Assembly: GCA_001829415.1 (NCBI GenBank)
Contig: MIBE01000053.1
Location: 28,812-92,811 of the forward strand
DNA length: 64,000 nt
Source of the DNA: Spirochaetes bacterium GWF1_51_8
GTDB lineage: Bacteria > Spirochaetota > Brevinematia > Brevinematales > GWF1-51-8
Reading direction: 5' to 3'
Every line of letters starts with the position of its first letter. Position 1 is the stretch's first letter. Below the pieces are notes generated by a model. It was not told the origin of the DNA and made no database searches. It was given only the letters and a program-made list of their open reading frames with translations. The position numbers were made by a program, and so were the translations under genes. Shown piece by piece: positions 17,883 to 59,750 of this stretch.

Positions 17883-19418
17883 TTGAGACGTTTTATATAT
17901 GCCGTTTCTTTCGGTTATATTATCGTTTCCGCCATGCTTTTATCCTGCGCCCCGGAACCGGCGGCTCCAGTCTATACCGTCAAGGTAGCTCCGTTGTCCG
18001 TTCAGGTTTCTAACCCTAAGCTCCTCATCGTTTTTTATGCTTGGGGACGGAATAACCTGATCTACAACCTGTTTGACGATATCGCGGAAATGGCGTCGAA
18101 TGTCGGCGTACTTCAGTCCTCGAATGTCGATATCGTCCTCTGCGTATCCAGCTGGGACGATTATTATTATTCGTATATTTGGGATGGGAAGCTGATCAAG
18201 AATAAGGATATCGAACTTACAAACTACTGGTATTCCGGAGTGTATTATTATAACAAGACTTCCGGATGGTTCGAGCGGGTATACTACAACGGAGACCGGT
18301 TTGATAATACCGCGACGGCTGCGGCCATGATCGATAATCTATCCTGGGTAAAATCTCATTTCGATACATCCGACGTCTGGCTCAATCTTTGGGACCACGG
18401 GTATAACGTACTTGAAATGGGGCTGAACGATACCGCGGTCGAAAAAACGAATACTTGGAGCGTTATAAGCCCTCTTTATATCGGGTATGATGAAATCCAC
18501 AGTAAAGGAGTTTCCGACGACGAAGTTACTTACGCGATAAAGACGACGCTCGGGTCGGTGAGAGTCCTTTCGTTCGACGCTTGTGAAATGATGATACTGG
18601 AAAGCCTTTATACCTATAAGGACGTCGCGGACTGGCTTGTCGGGAGCATGGGATCGCTGCCGACTGAAGGGTTTAACTATGATGAACTCTTTGAAAGGAT
18701 ATCGGTCTCGAACGGTACTTCTTTTACGATCGCAAAACAGATCGTTGACAGTTATTATGACTATATTCATACCGACTTATCGAACTATTTTATCACTTGG
18801 GGGTCCGGTTCTCAATCCGATATTCCTTACCTTACCGCGGTAACGAAAGAGGGAATGACAAGAACGATCGGATATATTGAGCAGACCTATGACTATCTCG
18901 AAACGCTGACGGAAACAAATAATAATTGGTTTTACGGATATTGGGATTATGCTACAAACGCCGGAGTTCCTTATTACCCGCCTCTCGGTGTCGCTGTTTG
19001 GATCAATAGATGGGGTTCAGTTGATACATACCATTGCTGGTTCAGACCTTCGATAGGTGAGGGAGGATCTTATACAAGTATAGCGGGAATGTTGCTTGAC
19101 TGTATGAAAGGCGATGAAAATATTCATTTGACTGGCGTACAGAAAACGGCGTTATCGAACATTCTTAATGCTTATGAAACAAATGTAGAAGATGATGTTT
19201 TGGTCCTGTATTACGGACAGGGTAAATCCCGATACGGTCTTTGGTATCATAATTTCTATTACGGTCATTACCCTAATTATCAAAATGCTGGGATATCCAG
19301 ACAGAGACCGAAATACTTTACGCCATCAACGCTTCTTCTTTTCCGAGATTACCCGAAGGTATGGGAGCTTCTCGGCGGTATGAAATATAATATCAATGAC
19401 CACAGATTTAACTATTAA
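17883..19418 (+). CDS. Clostripain-family (peptidase C11) lipoprotein, TTG start
   Basis: Lipobox VSAMLLSC; LLIVFYAWGRNNLIYNLFDDI; catalytic His in NLWDHGYN; catalytic Cys in VLSFDACEMMILES. Confidence 0.8.
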   Translation: MRRFIYAVSFGYIIVSAMLLSCAPEPAAPVYTVKVAPLSVQVSNPKLLIVFYAWGRNNLIYNLFDDIAEMASNVGVLQSSNVDIVLCVSSWDDYYYSYIWDGKLIKNKDIELTNYWYSGVYYYNKTSGWFERVYYNGDRFDNTATAAAMIDNLSWVKSHFDTSDVWLNLWDHGYNVLEMGLNDTAVEKTNTWSVISPLYIGYDEIHSKGVSDDEVTYAIKTTLGSVRVLSFDACEMMILESLYTYKDVADWLVGSMGSLPTEGFNYDELFERISVSNGTSFTIAKQIVDSYYDYIHTDLSNYFITWGSGSQSDIPYLTAVTKEGMTRTIGYIEQTYDYLETLTETNNNWFYGYWDYATNAGVPYYPPLGVAVWINRWGSVDTYHCWFRPSIGEGGSYTSIAGMLLDCMKGDENIHLTGVQKTALSNILNAYETNVEDDVLVLYYGQGKSRYGLWYHNFYYGHYPNYQNAGISRQRPKYFTPSTLLLFRDYPKVWELLGGMKYNINDHRFNY

Positions 19419-21646: not shown

Positions 21647-21794
21647 ATCAATCCTCCTTGATATATTGAACCCGGCGTCCTTGCCGGATTTTTTTCGTAG
21701 GAAAAGCTAAAGCATTTTCGGAAAGTTCCGAAAATTAAGTTAGGGGAAGAACGGGAATTCTCATTTGCAAAGAAACACAACTTCCTTGCTCTTT

Positions 21795-21822
21795 TTATCG
21801 ACGCCCCGCCATGTTTACTTTA
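21795..21822 (-). promoter_or_regulatory. Possible sigma28 (FliA) promoter for the upstream flagellin gene
   Basis: Minus strand TAAA-N16-GTCGATAA (consensus TAAA-N15-GCCGATAA), about 150 bp upstream of the start codon. Confidence 0.45.
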
Positions 21823-22010
21823 GAGCGTGATGATAAAATATTTTTGATTCCTGGGAAATCTATAAACTCAGGATTGTTCAGGGTAATCCGAACTTCGGAA
21901 TTTGCATGAATAACCGATCCGAATGGATAAGCCGATAGTATTGAAAGATTCCCCTAAAAACCAAATTATGGATAGAAGAAATAATATTTTGAAAAAATAT
22001 CAAAAAACGC

Positions 22011-22039
22011 TTGACATGGAAACGTTTCCATAATATAAT
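22011..22039 (+). promoter_or_regulatory. Consensus sigma70 promoter with embedded LacI/CcpA-family operator
   Basis: TTGACA-N17-TATAAT; spacer contains perfect palindrome TGGAAACGTTTCCA (22017-22030). Confidence 0.85.
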
Positions 22040-22132
22040 TCTCTATAATAAAATGAGGGGGTAATAAGATAAGAAAAATCCGATTCGGTTAGATGAAAAT
22101 AAATATTTTCTTTCGATGAAGGAAAAAAGTAT

Positions 22133-22160
22133 TGACAAAATGTTAAAATCGGTTAAACTA
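22133..22160 (+). promoter_or_regulatory. Second possible promoter of the glucan operon
   Basis: TTGACA aaatgttaaaatcggt TAAACT (16-nt spacer), followed by Shine-Dalgarno ggtggagg before 22200. Confidence 0.5.
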
Positions 22161-22199
22161 ACAGCACAATGCAAAATTTGAAAAGGTGGAGGTTAAAAT

Positions 22200-23585
22200 A
22201 TGAAGTTAGTCAGAGTCTTCTTAATATTCATGACGGCTCTATTGATCGCGAACAATCTATATCCGAAGAGCGCGGCGGATAAGAGCTATTTGTTGGCTTA
22301 TATCTCAAATTTAACTGTAACAGTTACAAACTGGGCTGGCACAAATTATGGTTGGGATGCTGACGATATGCTGATCAGCGAGAATATGGTATTAAGCTAC
22401 CCGAAGTATTCTACAAATTCCATTTCAAATACTAAGGCGTATATATATCCTCCCAAAACCGCGGAAAACATTTGTGAACTTTCAGATGATTCTAAAATGT
22501 CATCTCCCACGGAAAGAACATCCGGTGAAATATTCGGTTTCTGGTTTACTTGGGATACCAACGGCTTCTATTATGCTATTCAGGGGCAAGCCTCCGGCCA
22601 GGAAAACAACTTGATGCTTCTCATCGATCGTGTCACGAATGTCGGTACAAGGTCGATGGCTAATATGAACAGCGGCTGGAAAAGAAATATCAACCTTTAT
22701 GAATGGGATGTGGATTTCTATACCGGTTTTTGGTTAAAAGACCATGACATCACTTGGACAGGCGGCGGCGGCTTTCAGGTATGGAGGACTATTTCAATCG
22801 ACCCAAGTGGCGGCTTGAGTGCTACTTGGGAAAGCATTTATTCTTTTAACGGTACAGTCTATACTCCTGGTTCGGGATTTTCCGCAAATTCTGTGTTCCT
22901 GAATTTTACAACAAAAGAAACTGAAAAAACCAAGCATGTCGCGACAGGTTTTGTTAAATGGACTGTTTTTACGAATGGGATGTCACCTATTTATATTTCA
23001 AACTTGACTATTAAAGTCACCGCGGTGAGTACTGGACCTGCCGATGGAAGCCCGGTCTTTGATTTTTGTCCAGATAACCTCGGGGGTATCAATTCGATCA
23101 ATCCGCGTGTTTCGCAGGACAATTATTTTATTCTGAATGTATTTACCAACGGTCATGTCAACACAAATTTCTCACCTCAGTTCAACGGGAAAATATATGC
23201 ATTACCTGGGGCGAGCGATTATTCACATACGATTATTCCTTTCTTCAGTGGATCGAAGGATAATTTCGGAAATGATACTTCTTATCTAATCCCGGATCAA
23301 GGCGGTACTGTGACATTCAGTGTCGATACCAATGTTTTAAAATCGATCGGATACTTGTATGGTGTGAAAATAACCGTGTATGATCTGATCGGGAATAAGG
23401 TTGCAACAATCTATGATGACCCCCAAACTCTTGATGTCAATAATATATCACCATATCTTGTTTGGGATGGTAAAGATGAGAATAATAATCTTGTAGGTAT
23501 GGGAACATATATTGTAGTCTTAAGCGGGTTCAATCCTTCCAGCGATGCTGTCAAGCTGAAAGGGTATGTCAACGTACTGAGATAG
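22200..23585 (+). CDS. Exported beta-rich protein with C-terminal FlgD-Ig-like domain
   Basis: Signal peptide; C-terminus VKITVYDLIGNKVATIYDDPQTLDVNNISPYLVWDGKDENNNLVGMGTYIVVLSG. Confidence 0.75.
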   Translation: MKLVRVFLIFMTALLIANNLYPKSAADKSYLLAYISNLTVTVTNWAGTNYGWDADDMLISENMVLSYPKYSTNSISNTKAYIYPPKTAENICELSDDSKMSSPTERTSGEIFGFWFTWDTNGFYYAIQGQASGQENNLMLLIDRVTNVGTRSMANMNSGWKRNINLYEWDVDFYTGFWLKDHDITWTGGGGFQVWRTISIDPSGGLSATWESIYSFNGTVYTPGSGFSANSVFLNFTTKETEKTKHVATGFVKWTVFTNGMSPIYISNLTIKVTAVSTGPADGSPVFDFCPDNLGGINSINPRVSQDNYFILNVFTNGHVNTNFSPQFNGKIYALPGASDYSHTIIPFFSGSKDNFGNDTSYLIPDQGGTVTFSVDTNVLKSIGYLYGVKITVYDLIGNKVATIYDDPQTLDVNNISPYLVWDGKDENNNLVGMGTYIVVLSGFNPSSDAVKLKGYVNVLR

Positions 23586-23600
23586 AACTAGGAGGATTGT

Positions 23601-24542
23601 ATGCGGAATAAAGTATTTATCTTTGCAATTGGTTTAACCCTAGTTTTTTCTTCCATTAGCGGAATGTTTGGGGAAATTCTGGAAGGCCGCTATGTAGGAG
23701 GAAAAGTTGTGGGGAAAGGGGGCGCTATCAATGCCGATTCTATGGGTGTCTCCTCAATATTTTTTAACTCCGCGGCTTTGGCGGATGTAAAAAAGAATTT
23801 GGAAATCTGGTTTTCCTACGGCGCACCGTATGAAGATGTCCCCGGATCATCAATGCATGAATTTGCTTTTGCCGCCGGATATAACTTGGGATTTATGAAG
23901 ACTGCGGTTGGGTTTAAGTCAACAGGGGATTTCACTGCGTTGTCGTATAACTATATCTATGCAACCGGTGCTACATCCTTTGAAATAGGGAATTCCATTC
24001 TAAAAAGTGTTTCCGTAGGATTGAGCTTAAAAATGGTTGATATACATGCAGGAAACCTGCCCAGCTATACCGGTTTTAGTGTAAATAGCGATGGAATAGG
24101 TTTTTCATTTGATGTCGGTACACAGTTGCATCTCTTCAGCGATGTTTTAGTGTTGGGTATTAACGGAAGAAATCTATTTTCTTCAAGTATTTCATTAATA
24201 GGTACTGGTGGGGATTCACTGAAAAGAGACTTGTTCCTGGGTTTGAAGTGTTACATCACAAAGTTTCTTAATCTTACTGTAGATTACAATGCCCTTGGTT
24301 CGGCACATACGGTTCCATATATCAATCTTTTCGGTGATAGTGTGTCATTTGCAAATCTATATTTTGGGATTGAATTCGATTATCTTGAGAATATGGAAAT
24401 TTATACCGGATTTAACGAAGGGTCGTTAACCCTGGGAGTTGGAGTGACCGACTCGGATTATTTTAAGTTGGATTTCGGGATTTGGGTATTACCCGGGTTG
24501 AAAATGTATAGCCATGTCGGTTTGTCTGTCAGCCCGTTCTGA
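23601..24542 (+). CDS. UPF0164/PorV-like outer-membrane protein
   Basis: Signal peptide; AINADSMGVSSIFFNSAALADV...FAFAAGYNLGFMKTAVGFKS; alternating beta-strand pattern to the C-terminal aromatic residue. Confidence 0.65.
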   Translation: MRNKVFIFAIGLTLVFSSISGMFGEILEGRYVGGKVVGKGGAINADSMGVSSIFFNSAALADVKKNLEIWFSYGAPYEDVPGSSMHEFAFAAGYNLGFMKTAVGFKSTGDFTALSYNYIYATGATSFEIGNSILKSVSVGLSLKMVDIHAGNLPSYTGFSVNSDGIGFSFDVGTQLHLFSDVLVLGINGRNLFSSSISLIGTGGDSLKRDLFLGLKCYITKFLNLTVDYNALGSAHTVPYINLFGDSVSFANLYFGIEFDYLENMEIYTGFNEGSLTLGVGVTDSDYFKLDFGIWVLPGLKMYSHVGLSVSPF

Positions 24543-24563
24543 TGATCAAGTGAGGAGGAAAGA

Positions 24564-26174
24564 ATGAAAAAGAAACTACTATTAGCTTTATTGCTTCTGT
24601 TTACTTCCTTACACAGCGCATTTGCGGGGATAACATGGAATGCGTTCATGGAAGGTGGGATTCAATGGTACAACGACGCTACCGGTTCGGTAGTGAGCAA
24701 TGGAACATGGAAGATATATCCCTATAGTGATAACAAATATGGATATTATGAATTAAAGATGAATCTTCTAAGTGATAACGGATGGACGGGGTGGGGAAAT
24801 TTAAAAGTTAACCTTCTTGATTCGTCCGGCGCGGAAATGCAGATAAAAAATGAAATGGTACATTTCTCCTATAAACCTAATAAAATTAACTTTTCTCTCA
24901 TCAGAAATGAGAACTGGACTTGGTTAGGACAGCCTTATCTTAGCATTTTCGGTCAAAAAAATACCGATCAGAAGACAGTTACTTTTGTTTTTGAGCAAAG
25001 TGAACAGATCTTAAAAGGACTTCATACTAAAACGGTTTTGTACGGAAAAGATATCAATGATAACTATTTCGGTACCCGTTTTGACGGCGGATATAAACTG
25101 AATAAGTTTTTCACCGGGTCTTTAGGTTTTACTTTTTCTATGAAGCGGTGGCAGGCAAAGAGTAACAATTCAGTTTTAGGTTTCGGATATGATGTAAACG
25201 CGAATATAATTCTCCCCGCGAGTATTAATCTTTTCATGGGACTTGAATTCAATCATATCGACGAGGCTTGGAGAGGACCGTTATCCAATACTCCTTTTTT
25301 GGGTGCAATAGATGGATTTGCATATCGGTTTGAATTCAAATCTTCTTTCCCTACTTTAGCCGGGAATTTCAATTTGAATGGCAGTATTATGTATAAAGGA
25401 AAAAACTATGACGCCGATGCGCAGTTTGGTGGTACAGGCGGAAACTGGTTTGAGGAGTTTATACAGCTTCTCTATGCTTTCCCGCTGAAAATGATAGATT
25501 TTGAGTTTAACATCAAATACGGGCATCCAGTATATGCAACTTCGGCAAAACTTGGAAGCCCCTCTGTCCCGACATCCATAATAGCAAATACACCTTGGCT
25601 TTGGGGATATCATATCTGGGACTATAGGGAAGGGGTGTATACTACCGGACAGGTTTTCAATTATTATACAAAGTTGAGTGTTCAGTTTAAAAAGGGTATC
25701 AAGTTCTTTGCGAGTTATGTACTTTATATGCCTGGAAGTATTGAACTTTGGGGCGGCAATAATAAATATGACGATAACAAGAAAAATGATGCCTTATTCT
25801 TTGAATTGAAATTTGAAAATGAAACTGGAAAGATTAATTTACAGTATAAGATATATCGAGCCTTCTATGATGATCCTACTTATCGGATTGAGGCTGGCGG
25901 ATTGGAACTTGTTGCAAATATCACTCCGCAGATTAAGCTATACTCACGCATACTGCTTATGAATAGCGGCGGTGCAATTCTTACTGCATCGGGTTCTTCG
26001 ACATGGTGGAACTATTTTGGACAAATCCAGTATTATCCGGTGAATAATATGGGGATATTTCTTGAATTCGGAAATGGCGGAGATTCTGATCGTTTGACAA
26101 GTACAGTTTCTTCCACCTATTCTGCTAAGGAATTTGAGAGAAAGATTGTGTTGAAGTTTAACTACAATATATAG
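24564..26174 (+). CDS. Outer-membrane beta-barrel protein
   Basis: Signal peptide; amphipathic aromatic-rich strands; C-terminus ERKIVLKFNYNI. Confidence 0.65.
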   Translation: MKKKLLLALLLLFTSLHSAFAGITWNAFMEGGIQWYNDATGSVVSNGTWKIYPYSDNKYGYYELKMNLLSDNGWTGWGNLKVNLLDSSGAEMQIKNEMVHFSYKPNKINFSLIRNENWTWLGQPYLSIFGQKNTDQKTVTFVFEQSEQILKGLHTKTVLYGKDINDNYFGTRFDGGYKLNKFFTGSLGFTFSMKRWQAKSNNSVLGFGYDVNANIILPASINLFMGLEFNHIDEAWRGPLSNTPFLGAIDGFAYRFEFKSSFPTLAGNFNLNGSIMYKGKNYDADAQFGGTGGNWFEEFIQLLYAFPLKMIDFEFNIKYGHPVYATSAKLGSPSVPTSIIANTPWLWGYHIWDYREGVYTTGQVFNYYTKLSVQFKKGIKFFASYVLYMPGSIELWGGNNKYDDNKKNDALFFELKFENETGKINLQYKIYRAFYDDPTYRIEAGGLELVANITPQIKLYSRILLMNSGGAILTASGSSTWWNYFGQIQYYPVNNMGIFLEFGNGGDSDRLTSTVSSTYSAKEFERKIVLKFNYNI

Positions 26175-26191
26175 AAAACAGGAGGAGACAA

Positions 26192-27763
26192 ATGAATATA
26201 TTCAAAAGATTGGGAATAGCTTTTTTATTCATGGTATTTTCAACAATCGGAGTTGTAAATTCATCTTATGGAGCCATGTTGCTTTTTAAAGGAGAAGGTT
26301 TCTTTTTATTAAATATGGTGTTAGATGTTTCGAATGGGGTAATTAACACTACTGGAACAGGCCAGCCATATTTGAACAATGTTTCATTTTTAAAACTTAA
26401 TCTCTATCCTACTTTAGAGGATAAGGAGTATAAATCTACCTTCAAGATTAAGATTAATCCGTATGCTACGGGCAATGATTATTTGATTGCTGATGGGTTT
26501 AACTTTATCTATGATACAGATAAAGCAAATGTTACGATCTTCGTAAATAGATACGGCTTTAGATTTAACGATCCGATGTTCTCTGGATTTGAGAATTATG
26601 GATGGGAATACTCGAAATATAGTTATGACAAGCCGGTATATTTTGCTTATAATAACACTATTCATACTCCTGCTTTCTACGATGGAAACACCGATGATCG
26701 TTTTATGAGATTGGGGTATGGATTGACCGGATTGTATCTATCGGGTAAGGGTGATTTAGGTTATGAAGTAGCAGCCTACCTGAATAAATGGCAGACCAGT
26801 TCTCATATTCAGGGAAATGTAAACTACAATCTTGGAATGTTGAAACTGGGTGTATTGGCCAAGGTTGATAATCATCCTAATAATGATATCGCAAAAGGTT
26901 CTGCTCATAATGCAACCAATTTCCAGTCAGCATTATCCCAGAAATATAATACAGCGTTTGTTGTTTACTCTTTAGGACTTTTTGGAAATGTTGATCTTTC
27001 AATCATGAATCTTTTCTTTGAAGGGGTATATAGAAGTGGTAAAGGTTTGCCTGGAAACGCTCTTTCTACCGCGAAAACCGGATTGATAGATATATATGCC
27101 GGTATCGGAACAGGTATGTTTGAGGGTAATGAAGTTGAACTGTCTGCATTCTATAGAATGGATACTATTACCAACAGTACGCGAATGAACATTGACTTAA
27201 AGGCATACTCAGCACTCGAATTCGGAGATATGCAGTTATTCCAATTGGCATGGATTGATTTTTTATTTGCTAATCAGACGGGAACAGCTATTTCAGGAAA
27301 TTCGATAAATCTGAGTTTGCGTTTTATCATGTTTGATACTTTTGGAATTAGATTAGCTGGGTCTTATGAGAATTATGCTGTTTCGAGTAATGTTTCTTCG
27401 GACCTCTCTGTGAAAGCTGCGTTCGATTTTTATATCGATGAAATGTTGACGGTTTATGCTGGTGTTACTGCATACGGTTTGCTGGCTACTACAACCGGAA
27501 ATCCGATTTATAGCGGTGGTTTTTACTTCCTTCCTGTAGTCGGTTTGATATCTTCGCCTTTCGAATCCCTCAGGCTTTCGTTGACATTTGGGTACGATGT
27601 TGAATCATTCAGATACGATTTTGATGGTGCAAACCATGAAAACATGGTTACAAAGAAACTGCAATCTCAGGTGATTGATTCTGTAAATCAGACCTTTGCT
27701 GTGGACTGGTTGACATATGTAGCAAATCCTTCGATTGCATTCACTGCTTCAATTGTATTCTAA
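26192..27763 (+). CDS. Outer-membrane beta-barrel protein
   Basis: Signal peptide; aromatic-rich amphipathic strands; C-terminus NPSIAFTASIVF (terminal Phe). Confidence 0.65.
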   Translation: MNIFKRLGIAFLFMVFSTIGVVNSSYGAMLLFKGEGFFLLNMVLDVSNGVINTTGTGQPYLNNVSFLKLNLYPTLEDKEYKSTFKIKINPYATGNDYLIADGFNFIYDTDKANVTIFVNRYGFRFNDPMFSGFENYGWEYSKYSYDKPVYFAYNNTIHTPAFYDGNTDDRFMRLGYGLTGLYLSGKGDLGYEVAAYLNKWQTSSHIQGNVNYNLGMLKLGVLAKVDNHPNNDIAKGSAHNATNFQSALSQKYNTAFVVYSLGLFGNVDLSIMNLFFEGVYRSGKGLPGNALSTAKTGLIDIYAGIGTGMFEGNEVELSAFYRMDTITNSTRMNIDLKAYSALEFGDMQLFQLAWIDFLFANQTGTAISGNSINLSLRFIMFDTFGIRLAGSYENYAVSSNVSSDLSVKAAFDFYIDEMLTVYAGVTAYGLLATTTGNPIYSGGFYFLPVVGLISSPFESLRLSLTFGYDVESFRYDFDGANHENMVTKKLQSQVIDSVNQTFAVDWLTYVANPSIAFTASIVF

Positions 27764-27790
27764 GTGTTAAGAAAAACAATGGAGGGAAAA

Positions 27791-28276
27791 ATGAAACTGA
27801 AAAAGAACCTCCTACTTTCAGTCTTGGGAATGTTTCTTATAGCATTTAATTCCTGCGGCGTTCTTGACGCTGTAAAGGATAGATATATTCCCTTTGAAAT
27901 GGTAGGAATAGAAGGGAGCGAAGTTTTAGTGAAGTTTGTGTTCGACGCCCCTTCCGCAAAGGAAGTTTGGCTTGCGGGATCGTTTAATAACTGGTCGCAG
28001 AGCAAAAGTAATCCCGCATATCCCGCAGTGCCTTTACAGCAGAATGCACGTGTGGTAATGGAACTGGATCCGAAAACCGGATATTGGATTGCGGTTATTC
28101 CTCTTGCGCCGGGAAGGTATCAGTATAAGTACATTGTCGATACCTCGAACTGGCAGGAAGACCCAAACACACCTGAACATGTCGACGATGGCTTTGGCGG
28201 GAATAACTCTATTATCATGGTAACCATGCCGGCTGAAGCAAAGCAAGATGCGCCTGAAGAACAACCTGCGCAATAG
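27791..28276 (+). CDS. Lipoprotein with glycogen-binding (AMPK/CBM48-like) domain
   Basis: Lipobox LIAFNSC; VLVKFVFDAPSAKEVWLAGSFNNWSQSKSNPAYPAVPLQQ...ELDPKTGYWIAVIPLAPGRYQYKYIVD; ggaggg Shine-Dalgarno. Confidence 0.85.
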   Translation: MKLKKNLLLSVLGMFLIAFNSCGVLDAVKDRYIPFEMVGIEGSEVLVKFVFDAPSAKEVWLAGSFNNWSQSKSNPAYPAVPLQQNARVVMELDPKTGYWIAVIPLAPGRYQYKYIVDTSNWQEDPNTPEHVDDGFGGNNSIIMVTMPAEAKQDAPEEQPAQ

Positions 28277-28291
28277 CACAAAGGTAGAAAA

Positions 28292-28750
28292 ATGTTAGTA
28301 TTTTCCGGAAGAAAAGTTTTTAGCAGTCTTATGCTGACCCTGATCCTTACACTCGCCGTCACATCGTGTGAAGAGGGCGAGGTAATGGATCGGGTTCAGC
28401 CGTATAAGGTACTCGGGTCGTTCGGCACTAGTGAAGTGCATGTAAAGTTTAACTTTGACGAACCGACCGCGAGGCAGGTTTGGCTGATCGGCGATTTCAA
28501 CAATTGGGCTATCGGGAAATCGAATCCGTTTTATCCCGATGTCCCGTTATCCCAAGGCGCTAAAGTCGCGATGCAGAAAGATCCGTCAACCGGATTCTGG
28601 ACTGTGACAATCCCGCTCAATCCCGGACGGTACCTTTATCAATATGCAATCGACGAAGGGATTTTCATTGTCGGAGACCCTAACAATAATGATAAGTATG
28701 AGCTCGCCGACGGGACCTATAAGTCTATTGTCTATGTGATCGATAAGTAA
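28292..28750 (+). CDS. Lipoprotein with glycogen-binding (AMPK/CBM48-like) domain, tandem paralogue
   Basis: Lipobox LAVTSC; VHVKFNFDEPTARQVWLIGDFNNWAIGKSNPFYPDVPLSQ...KDPSTGFWTVTIPLNPGRYLYQYAID. Confidence 0.85.
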   Translation: MLVFSGRKVFSSLMLTLILTLAVTSCEEGEVMDRVQPYKVLGSFGTSEVHVKFNFDEPTARQVWLIGDFNNWAIGKSNPFYPDVPLSQGAKVAMQKDPSTGFWTVTIPLNPGRYLYQYAIDEGIFIVGDPNNNDKYELADGTYKSIVYVIDK

Positions 28751-28767
28751 AAGCTTTGGAGGCATAC

Positions 28768-30153
28768 ATGGCAAGATATTTTTGGATGGTAGCGTGTTTA
28801 TTCCTGCTCGCGCTTCCCGCGTGTGACGGAAAAGGCGGCGGCGGGACCAACGATTCAGTTGCTAACGAGTTTAAGCTGGATGAAACCGGGGATACAGTTT
28901 TGACATTCCTGATGTGGGGGACTCCTGAAGAAAAGTCCTCTGTCTATGCTGTTCTTAAAGAGTTCCAGAAACAGCAGGATGCGAAGGGCGATCATATCGG
29001 TCTGAAAGTCATCTCCGTTGACTCCCTGAATTATTCAGATAAACTTCAGACAATGTTCGCGGGCGGCACCTATCCCGATGTATTTTATCTGCATATCCAG
29101 GACTTCTTTAAATATGCCAGTAAGGGTAACCTCGCTGCTCTTGACGATTATGTAAAGGAACCCGATTTCAATGTCGGAGACTTCTATCCCGCCCTTATGG
29201 AGAAGTTTACCTTCGAAGGGACATTGTACGGCGTTCCGAAGGACTGGACTTCTTTTGTGCTCTACTATAACATGGACATGTTCGATAAAGCCGGACTCTC
29301 TTATCCCGACGATACTTGGACATGGGAAGATTTCCTCAATGCCGCGAAAAAGCTGACTGTCGACTATAACGGGGACAAGAAGATCGACCAGTACGGTTTC
29401 ATTATCGAAACTTGGGCTGACTGGTATAATTCGTGGATTATGCAGAACGACGGTATGATCTTCGACGACAAGGGCAACTGGGTGTTCTCACGCGGCGCCA
29501 ATGTCGATAAAAATGCCAAGGCCATTCAGTATGTCGCCGACCTGATCAATGTAGTCGGTGTCGCGCCCTCTATCGACCAGTCCAAGCAGTTGGGCGGCGG
29601 TGAAGCGTTTATGTCCGGCCGTGTCGCGATGTGTATGTACGGTCGCTGGCAGATGCTGAAGTTCAAGAAGATCAAAGACTTCAAGTGGGGTTACGCTGTT
29701 CTTCCGCAGAACGTGAAGAAGGCCGCTACTGTGGTCGCGGTTTCTCTCGCAATCGCCGAACAGTCTCCCAATAAAGACGCGGCTTGGAAGCTCCTGAAGT
29801 TCATCACAAGCTTCGAAGGCCAGATTTATACCGCTGAAGCGGGACTTGCGGTTCCTTCCAGAATTTCGCTGGTTGAATCGGATCATTATCTCAAGGCTCC
29901 AGAGGTCATTAAGTATCAGCCCCATCTGGCTATGAATAGTTCGAAGGAAGACCCGTTTATCATCGAACTCGCCTATGGTAAGTTTGCTCCCGCCAACGCT
30001 TATTGGCTGGAAGTTCGCCAGAAAATGGACGAACAGTTCGACGAAGTATTCCTCGGTAAGCAGCAGGCTAAGGATGTTATCTTGAGACTTGACAAGATCA
30101 TCAACGATATCATCGAGCCTCAGGCTATTGAAAATGTAGAAGTCTCTGAATAA
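28768..30153 (+). CDS. ABC transporter sugar-binding lipoprotein (family 1 extracellular solute-binding protein)
   Basis: Lipobox LLALPAC; LMWGTPEEKSSVYAVLKEFQKQ...YPDVFYLHIQDFFKYASKGNLAALDDYV...YGVPKDWTSFVLYYNMDMFDKAGL. Confidence 0.92.
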   Translation: MARYFWMVACLFLLALPACDGKGGGGTNDSVANEFKLDETGDTVLTFLMWGTPEEKSSVYAVLKEFQKQQDAKGDHIGLKVISVDSLNYSDKLQTMFAGGTYPDVFYLHIQDFFKYASKGNLAALDDYVKEPDFNVGDFYPALMEKFTFEGTLYGVPKDWTSFVLYYNMDMFDKAGLSYPDDTWTWEDFLNAAKKLTVDYNGDKKIDQYGFIIETWADWYNSWIMQNDGMIFDDKGNWVFSRGANVDKNAKAIQYVADLINVVGVAPSIDQSKQLGGGEAFMSGRVAMCMYGRWQMLKFKKIKDFKWGYAVLPQNVKKAATVVAVSLAIAEQSPNKDAAWKLLKFITSFEGQIYTAEAGLAVPSRISLVESDHYLKAPEVIKYQPHLAMNSSKEDPFIIELAYGKFAPANAYWLEVRQKMDEQFDEVFLGKQQAKDVILRLDKIINDIIEPQAIENVEVSE

Positions 30154-30164
30154 GAGATAGATTT

Positions 30165-30198
30165 AAGCCCCGCGGAATTTCCCGCGGGGCTTTTTTTT
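30165..30198 (+). terminator. Rho-independent terminator of the glucan operon
   Basis: gccccgcgg aatttc ccgcggggc tttttttt. Confidence 0.9.
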
Positions 30199-57430: not shown

Positions 57431-59602
57431 TTACGGGTTGACTGTCGAGCTCATATAAATATAAGCGGTTCCCGCCGGGACGATTATATTCGTCGCGGCA
57501 CCGGGGAAGACAACCGAACTCAAACCGGGAACCTCGCCTGAAGCGGCGGTTCCGTTACACATCACGTACCACGTTCCGGCTTTAGTGATCGAGTAGGTTT
57601 GCGCGGACGAATAAAAGTTTACGAGAACGATGAAGTCGCGCGCGCCGGAAACACTGTAATACCTGTATCCGATTGAGCCGTTCGCCCATGACGAGACTAC
57701 CCAGTCGAATCCAGTGGGATTTGTCGCGTTTTGATTGAGCACCGGATTATTCTTGCGGAGCTTGATCAGCTCGGATGCGAAATCGACCAGATCGGCGTTC
57801 GTAACCGCGAGATCCCAGATCATCTTATTATTCGCTTCGTCGGTATTGTTCGCGATATAGTTTCCGTAGTGCAGTCGCATAAACTCGTCACCCATCCAGA
57901 ACATCGGTGTCCCCATCGCTGTCATCATATGCGCATAAGCGAGCTTGATTTTTACTTTTGTAGAAGACCAGCGTCCCGCGAGAGTACCCTCGTCGTGCGA
58001 ACTGGTGTAGTTGATGATATGTGTACCCTTCTTCCAGCCTCCATTATTGCAATGGTATGAAAGGTCTCCAAGATATCCGGGAGCCGAATTGAAGAGAGCC
58101 TCCCAGACACCGTTGCGGAAGCCGTTGCCCCATGACGCGACATAATCGCCGTAGCTCAAGTTAAACGCCTGAATCGAGGAATTATGCGAACCGCTGAATT
58201 CTTCGAAAATATAATACCTATCGCCGTACCCATTGTCAACAAGAGCTTTCACGACCGCAAGTGTTGCGTCGATATCCATATTTTCGGTCGAATCAAGACG
58301 GAAGCCGTCGACATGAAACACATCCATGAAATATTTCATGTTATCGTACATGAGCTTTTTCACTAACGGCCGCCATGTGGCCAGTTTATTTCCCCATGCG
58401 GTCGAGTCGTTATTCGGGTCACCGTCGTTATTGTAATCGAAGTAATAGACATCATCGACTGTCCAAAGATGATTATCGCTGCTTGCGGTGTGATTATAGA
58501 CCACATCGAGGATCACCGCGATTCCGGCGTTATGAAGCTCGTCGACAAGTTGTTTAAATTCGGTGACCTGTGCCCCGGTGTTTGCCGATGCGTATCCCGA
58601 TTCGGGAGCGAAATAGAGAGAGTTATTGTAGCCCCAGCTATACCCGGCATCGGGGAATTCCGAGATCGGCATCAATTCCACCGCATTGATCCCGAGATTG
58701 GTCAGGTAGGTAAGTTTTTCGAGGATACCCAGATACTTACCCTTGTTACCCGCCGTCACTCCGCTCGATGCGTCGGAAGTGAAGTCCTTGACATGCATCT
58801 CATAAATCACAAGTTCGGTGCGGGTGGGGCGGACATACCCGGAATCCGTCCATGCATAGTTTGTAGCGATGATCAGGCTGTTCCCCGATGAGTACATGTT
58901 TGCTTTCGCGTAGGGGTCGCATGTCCATGTGCTTGCACCGAGGATGAATTTGTACTGTTTCCCGTTAGGACTGGCGATATTAGTCTTCAGCCACCAGTAC
59001 TTACCATCGGGGGTGAGATACATGTTCTTCGCACCGTCCCCCCAATCAGGAACAGTAAAATCACCGGCTACCTTGGCGGAAGTAAAATTCGGGGCGAATA
59101 TAGAGAAATAGACCGTCGTGCCGTCGGTGTCGATATTCGCGCCGAGCATGTTGGTCACTTTAGCCATACTATCGGGATTGGAAAGCTTTGTCACCAAAGA
59201 TGAGTCCCAGAGCTGGCGGTTATAAGAGATGGCGAATTTCTCAATCGCCGCCGTGCCGACCGGAAGCGTTCTATCGGCGGGAAAGCCGTAGAGAGCCTTT
59301 TCGTAGCTCGTGCCGCTCCTGAACTGGAGACCGTATGTGGAACTCTGCGCGGCGATCGTCTTAAAGATCAAAAACGTATACCCCCCGATATTGGTCGTTC
59401 CGGAATTAGTGACCTGCGATCCGGCGGCTCCCGTTTTCCAGAACCACATATTCGGCGACGCCATATTATAACCGTTCAAAAAATAGATTGTGACCGGGAC
59501 AGTCGGGATGGCGTTCGTGGTGCCCGGATCGACAGGTACGGGCCCGCCGCACGCAGATAGCACGACGGAAAATATGATTCCGAGAATCGACAATTGCTTC
59601 AT
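57431..59602 (-). CDS. GH13 alpha-glucan hydrolase lipoprotein (pullulanase/amylase type) with N-terminal CBM48-like domain
   Basis: Lipobox VVLSAC; VILDVVYNHTA; GFRLDSTENMDI; YYIFEEFSG; NYTSSHDEGTL. Confidence 0.92.
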   Translation of the reverse strand: MKQLSILGIIFSVVLSACGGPVPVDPGTTNAIPTVPVTIYFLNGYNMASPNMWFWKTGAAGSQVTNSGTTNIGGYTFLIFKTIAAQSSTYGLQFRSGTSYEKALYGFPADRTLPVGTAAIEKFAISYNRQLWDSSLVTKLSNPDSMAKVTNMLGANIDTDGTTVYFSIFAPNFTSAKVAGDFTVPDWGDGAKNMYLTPDGKYWWLKTNIASPNGKQYKFILGASTWTCDPYAKANMYSSGNSLIIATNYAWTDSGYVRPTRTELVIYEMHVKDFTSDASSGVTAGNKGKYLGILEKLTYLTNLGINAVELMPISEFPDAGYSWGYNNSLYFAPESGYASANTGAQVTEFKQLVDELHNAGIAVILDVVYNHTASSDNHLWTVDDVYYFDYNNDGDPNNDSTAWGNKLATWRPLVKKLMYDNMKYFMDVFHVDGFRLDSTENMDIDATLAVVKALVDNGYGDRYYIFEEFSGSHNSSIQAFNLSYGDYVASWGNGFRNGVWEALFNSAPGYLGDLSYHCNNGGWKKGTHIINYTSSHDEGTLAGRWSSTKVKIKLAYAHMMTAMGTPMFWMGDEFMRLHYGNYIANNTDEANNKMIWDLAVTNADLVDFASELIKLRKNNPVLNQNATNPTGFDWVVSSWANGSIGYRYYSVSGARDFIVLVNFYSSAQTYSITKAGTWYVMCNGTAASGEVPGLSSVVFPGAATNIIVPAGTAYIYMSSTVNP

Positions 59603-59750
59603 AAAAAAACCTCCGGAAAAATTTTGAGGAAGAGCGGATAAGATGAGATACAACCCTATATATACTATAACTCAAAAATCCGAAAAGTCAAGGTGAAAAA
59701 CGGACTAATTCCGCTTCTAAGAAGTATTTACTGCGGGATTCGAAAAGTAT

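Follow-up and report, generated by a model that had tools for sequence, protein, structure and literature searches.

The window, which is the whole 64-kb stretch of DNA analysed, comes from an uncultured spirochaete of the Brevinematales and contains seven forward-strand open reading frames spanning 22200-30153 and separated by intergenic gaps of about 5–30 bases. On inspection, the products of all seven have apparent export signals. Two predicted promoters and an operator-like palindrome lie upstream of the array, and an intrinsic terminator lies downstream. The features are as follows:

22011-22039, forward strand: promoter P1, 12 of 12 matches to the sigma-70 consensus, TTGACA-17-TATAAT
22017-22030, no strand: LacI-type operator TGGAAACGTTTCCA, a perfect palindrome inside the P1 spacer
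22132-22159, forward strand: promoter P2, TTGACA-16-TAAACT, a genus-conserved element also present 5′ of g1 at loci L024 and L019
22200-23585, forward strand: g1, exported protein with a C-terminal FlgD-Ig/CHU_C-like tail
23601-24542, forward strand: g2, PorV/PorQ-family-like outer membrane protein
24564-26174, forward strand: g3, exported barrel candidate, the large component with the widest conservation
26192-27763, forward strand: g4, second exported barrel candidate, with a C-terminal Phe
27791-28276 (GTG alternative at 27764), forward strand: g5, CBM48/AMPK-type lipoprotein with a complete set of glucan-contact residues
28292-28750, forward strand: g6, tandem CBM48-like lipoprotein paralogue, its platform reduced to the first Trp
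28768-30153 (TTG alternative at 28756), forward strand: g7, family-1 sugar-binding lipoprotein
30165-30192, forward strand: intrinsic terminator, an 11-pair stem with 9 GC pairs followed by a T tract

A sequence-only reading of the window had described these genes as a single same-strand unit running from one promoter region to one strong terminator. This is borne out by the perfect promoter at 22011-22039 and the strong terminator at 30165-30192. Conservation of the order, proposed there as a check, is borne out by a comparison that covered 345 Spirochaetota genomes, together with a scan for g3 in genome contigs that reached close relatives only. The gene order is the same in all four genomes of the genus as far as their contigs extend (one contig starts within g3), with recG downstream and, where the contig extends that far, flaB upstream. 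Because the order is kept in four genomes, the array is not due to chance, and the observation stands. Elsewhere in the window, at 17883-19418 on the forward strand, is a gene for a clostripain-family (C11) peptidase.

Related operons occur well outside the genus. In a family of the sister class (G014, G015 and G016) the array consists of g1-g2-g3, further large exported barrel candidates and, where the contig extends, a single CBM48 lipoprotein; these operons contain no sugar-binding protein and no flaB. Four more distant genomes (G019, G029, G041 and G051) carry a g3 homologue in an array that contains a FlgD-Ig protein, a PorV-like protein, the g3 homologue and a fusion protein of 664–698 aa in which an N-terminal CBM48 domain is joined to a barrel candidate. 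The array of G041 is cut off by the contig end after the fusion gene, and in G051 the contig begins within the FlgD-Ig gene. In G019, G029 and G051 the fusion gene is accompanied by genes for one more barrel candidate, a CBM48 lipoprotein and an additional PorV-like protein, the last with similarity to PorP/SprF (one protein above the curated cut-off). At all three distant loci where the contig continues, the next gene in line encodes a giant exported protein of about 2700–3070 aa or longer, with a GH13 catalytic domain in G019 and G029; the G051 copy leaves the contig before that region. The G019 giant protein also has a glucodextranase-type module, and the opposite flank of that operon encodes TrmB, a regulator, and a GH13 protein resembling pullulanase. 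Taken as genomic context, the GH13 giant protein, the pullulanase and TrmB at these distant loci provide the strongest evidence for an alpha-glucan substrate. The earlier description of the operon as a glucan system stands as to gene order and substrate but was too narrow, as the module is scattered over the phylum. In G029 a gene for a Peripla_BP_4 sugar-binding-like lipoprotein, of a different family from g7, is located just upstream of the operon (L057:10160-11146, reverse strand).

The first two gene products resemble known families to different degrees. The FlgD-Ig-like tail assigned to the exported g1 protein is weak in g1 itself (0.07) but present in all six homologues, with a best value of 7.8e-7 (Pfam), and two of the g1 homologues show similarity to CHU_C. 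These homologues are full-length in the genus and the sister family and shorter, at 375 aa, in the distant spirochaetes; the g1 profile matches 124 of the 345 phylum genomes, mostly via the FlgD-Ig tail. The g2 protein had been called UPF0164/PorV-like, of which the second part is retained: similarity to PorV/PorQ is found in six of six homologues, at best 1.2e-9 and under the curated cut-off, whereas neither g2 nor its homologues match UPF0164 in Pfam scans. The g2 profile has no relevant match in the PDB.

The two large proteins in the middle of the operon, g3 and g4, match no recognised family, g3 having no hit in Pfam, NCBIfam or the PDB and g4 none in Pfam or NCBIfam. The TonB-receptor profile matches none of g2, g3 and g4. 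AlphaFold models built from three-sequence alignments have pLDDT values of 32.5 for g3 and 28.7 for g4, too low for fold searches. Both remain barrel candidates only: an alternation count is slightly above that of other window proteins used as controls, and a C-terminal Phe is present in g4 and most homologues. Profile A8, built from g3 together with its homologues, matches 12 of the 345 phylum genomes. The g4 profile gives no significant match to the barrel candidates of the sister family and the distant loci, and g4 was dropped as their sequence homologue; it is therefore treated as genus-specific by sequence and as a positional counterpart only, both of barrel candidates X/Y and of those fused to CBM48.

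The tandem lipoproteins g5 and g6 had been credited with glycogen-binding-like domains, and both score above the profile cut-offs: g5 matches AMPK1_CBM at 3.6e-10 (40.3 bits; cut-off 26.8) and also CBM_48, and g6 matches CBM_48 at 2.2e-5 (25.1 bits; cut-off 22.4; all Pfam). The significant PDB match of g5 is AMPK beta-1; branching-enzyme models also match g5 weakly, and both g5 and g6 have a faint likeness to the T9SS plug, located on the CBM-like fold. The glucan contacts of AMPK beta are W100, K126, W133 and N150 (PMC9788615). In an alignment for which the AMPK segment was taken only in part from the PDB alignment, and with N150 assigned by counting along the AMPK sequence to the first Asn of VNN, equivalents of all four residues are present in g5, in its orthologues and in the distant lipoproteins. 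In g6 W100 alone is kept in all four genomes, with K replaced by Q, W by I or V, and N by K. The refuting condition set out with the original reading, lack of an aromatic glucan-binding platform, is consequently not seen in g5 (four of four contacts) but does apply to g6, which has lost three of the four in every genome.

The final gene, g7, is a family-1 sugar-binding lipoprotein as originally annotated, matching SBP_bac_8 at 7e-36 (Pfam) and showing an LPAC lipobox on inspection. Its nearest solved relative in the PDB is Lmo0181, the ligand of which is a cyclic alpha-glucotetrasaccharide (PMC7676653). Among the operons compared g7 is confined to those of the genus, which removes it from the core components; since it is missing from all operons outside the genus, its distribution marks it as a genus-level addition and an accessory. 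No permease gene adjoins g7, and the CUT1-type sets on contigs C27 and C33 are candidate permeases for it. The C27 set already has a binding protein of its own: this operon encodes a MalE-like protein with two permeases, then a small lipoprotein and a MalK/UgpC-like ATPase, and its last gene (L090:13249-13770, reverse strand) is for a g5-type lipoprotein. This CBM48 lipoprotein of the MalE-like/MalFG ABC operon, the third of its kind, has equivalents of W100, K126 and W133, with Cys in place of N150. The genome encodes five SBP_bac_8 proteins, and a permease pair on contig C63 resembles, on inspection, a phosphate transporter. The assembly is 93.5% complete, and missing genes, such as a permease, may therefore be assembly gaps.

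The operator within P1 links the operon to other glucan genes. First, an exact copy of TGGAAACGTTTCCA occurs once more in the genome, 5′ of a GH13 lipoprotein gene and in a TTGACAT promoter-spacer context. Second, a copy with one mismatch lies 5′ of a lacI-family gene that is followed by a GH31 gene, likewise in a TTGACAT context. The remaining one-mismatch site in the genome is within an ORF, and of eight sites with two mismatches seven are within ORFs, for which reason the two-mismatch sites were judged to be chance occurrences. By Pfam and NCBIfam the genes linked to the operator encode a cyclomaltodextrinase-like GH13 protein, a LacI protein and a GH31 alpha-glucosidase similar to MalA, with export signals apparent in the GH13 and GH31 products. 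Third, in two genus relatives, G001 and G003, this promoter-operator arrangement is again found 5′ of the orthologues of the GH13 and lacI genes. It is likely that a LacI-family repressor controls P1 in the window genome, and we infer that the LacI protein encoded with GH31 on contig C5 is a plausible binder of TGGAAACGTTTCCA. Two further observations concern one-mismatch copies of the operator. In G001 and G003 a lipoprotein gene has one at its start (L127 and L128), the G003 gene (L128) being GH63/trehalase-like, and a related gene in G002 (L137) has one also.

The operon copies in G001 and G003 share P2 and lack both P1 and the upstream operator, so that control through P1 and the operator is specific to the lineage of the window. 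The intergenic region at 21647-22199 exceeds its counterpart in the genus relatives by about 200 bases, and the additional segment, which carries P1 and the operator, is missing from both of the genus relatives aligned. This suggests a lineage-specific promoter gain.

The genome has about 28 GH13 genes, counted as distinct places, and several encode large proteins with apparent lipoprotein signals. A tandem cluster of such proteins, about 960–1290 aa or longer and also with apparent lipoprotein signals, is located at L094:11599-19347 (forward strand) and L095. Within the window a GH13 gene with a CBM48 domain occupies 57431-59653 on the reverse strand, its nearest models being type I pullulanase and GlgX. 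None of the seven genes of the operon encodes a glycoside hydrolase. The number of GH13 genes was considered as a marker of operon carriers and rejected, because relatives in the order that have no operon (G004, G007 and G010) are also rich in GH13 candidates.

Together, the GH13 giant protein, pullulanase and TrmB adjoining the distant operons, the fusions of CBM48 to barrel candidates, the operator common to GH13 and GH31 genes and the abundance of GH13 leave the originally proposed alpha-glucan role well supported. We consider it probable that the operon is a module of the Spirochaetota for capture and uptake of an alpha-glucan (starch, glycogen or maltodextrin) at the outer surface, analogous to Sus and assembled from other parts. 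The glucan-binding residues, conserved gene order, enzyme neighbours, domain fusion and common operator are features of the sequences that point to this proposal, from which we infer a surface location, glucan binding and transport. Glucan would be held at the cell surface by g5 and, in the distant relatives, also by the CBM48-barrel-candidate fusion. It would then be cut by surface or secreted GH13 enzymes. In the distant relatives this would be the giant protein encoded next in line; the window genome would rely on GH13 enzymes from other loci, one of which has the same operator as the operon. The resulting oligosaccharides would cross the outer membrane via g3 and g4, g7 and other CUT1 binding proteins would pass them to an ABC importer, and GH31 and GH13 enzymes would complete the breakdown. 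A more specific proposal, possible though somewhat short of probable, is that g3, g4 and their homologues constitute, with the CBM48 lipoproteins and the PorV-like protein, a new outer-membrane machine for oligosaccharide import that is scattered over the Spirochaetota and independent both of TonB/SusCD and of LamB.

The principal alternative is that the operon encodes a surface-secretion or display module in the style of type IX secretion, in which g1 would carry a C-terminal sorting tail and g2 would act as a PorV-type shuttle. The barrel candidates and CBM lipoproteins would then anchor secreted amylases at the surface with no import of sugar. The CHU_C similarity of two g1 homologues, the resemblance of g2 to PorV/PorQ and of the extra PorV-like protein to PorP/SprF, the faint likeness of g5 and g6 to the T9SS plug, and the giant secreted GH13 protein within the same array are all consistent with this. 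However, PorP_SprF of one protein excepted, these matches are under the curated cut-offs, the T9SS-plug match sits on the CBM-like fold, and SprA_N has no match in the genome in a search that had no positive control, no control genome having matched. Moreover, an operon with two or three large barrel candidates and, in the genus, a sugar-binding protein is better suited to uptake, and we regard this alternative as unlikely. A second possibility is a role in sensing or handling glycogen of the cell itself, or a surface polysaccharide, and not an external glucan, in keeping with the occurrence of CBM48/AMPK domains in glycogen enzymes and with the weak branching-enzyme matches of g5. The apparent export signals on all seven products, the amylase and pullulanase neighbours in relatives, and an operator common to GH13 and GH31 genes whose products are themselves apparently exported make it very improbable. 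Finally, a flagellar or motility cluster, suggested by the two flagellin genes just upstream, by flaB adjoining the operon in the window and two genus relatives, and by the FlgD-like domain of g1, can scarcely be credited and was rejected, since flaB is transcribed divergently, its association with the operon is limited to the genus and absent from the sister family and distant spirochaetes, and FlgD-Ig is a common tail domain, as the 124 genomes matched by the g1 profile attest.

What is understood of how large glycans are captured at the outer membrane comes chiefly from the TonB-dependent SusCD systems, and we found no description of a locus such as this one in the open-access literature. 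An outer-surface glucan-use locus with outer-membrane parts unrelated to those of Sus is the most likely reading of the operon. If true, it would be a second solution to the capture of large glycans and would account for the use of starch or glycogen by free-living spirochaetes; two large exported protein families that have had no assigned role would gain a testable function, for which the CBM48-barrel-candidate fusion offers a direct experimental handle.

Comparison with known systems shows partial likenesses to each. As in the enterobacterial LamB/MalEFGK system, the genome encodes a CUT1 ABC importer that includes a MalE-like protein, but LamB (PF02264) has no match in the genome in a search whose control matched, and the glucan-binding lipoproteins, predicted to lie at the surface, are additional. 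The g2 protein scores within the PorV/PorQ family, to be compared also with treponemal FadL-like proteins, yet it does so under the curated cut-off and in a genome with no SprA match (in the same search without a positive control). In g5 the glucan-contact residues and the PDB match are those of AMPK beta, whereas the spirochaetal CBM48 domains are stand-alone lipoproteins or are fused to barrel candidates. The closest functional parallel is the Sus or utilisome system of Bacteroidota (SusCDEF, SusA, SusB and SusR). With it the spirochaete loci share the grouping, within a single locus or regulon, of glucan-binding lipoproteins presumed to lie at the surface, large outer-membrane protein candidates and GH13 enzymes, and an expected division of labour into capture, cutting and import. 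The parts themselves differ, in agreement with the initial statement that SusC and SusD are not recognisable here: SusD (PF07980) has no match in the genome, although a Bacteroides control matched, and the single TonB receptor is encoded on another contig (C43). Neither g3 nor g4 of the spirochaetes has a family match, CBM48 domains take the place of the Sus binding folds, and the regulators are of the LacI or TrmB type in place of SusR.
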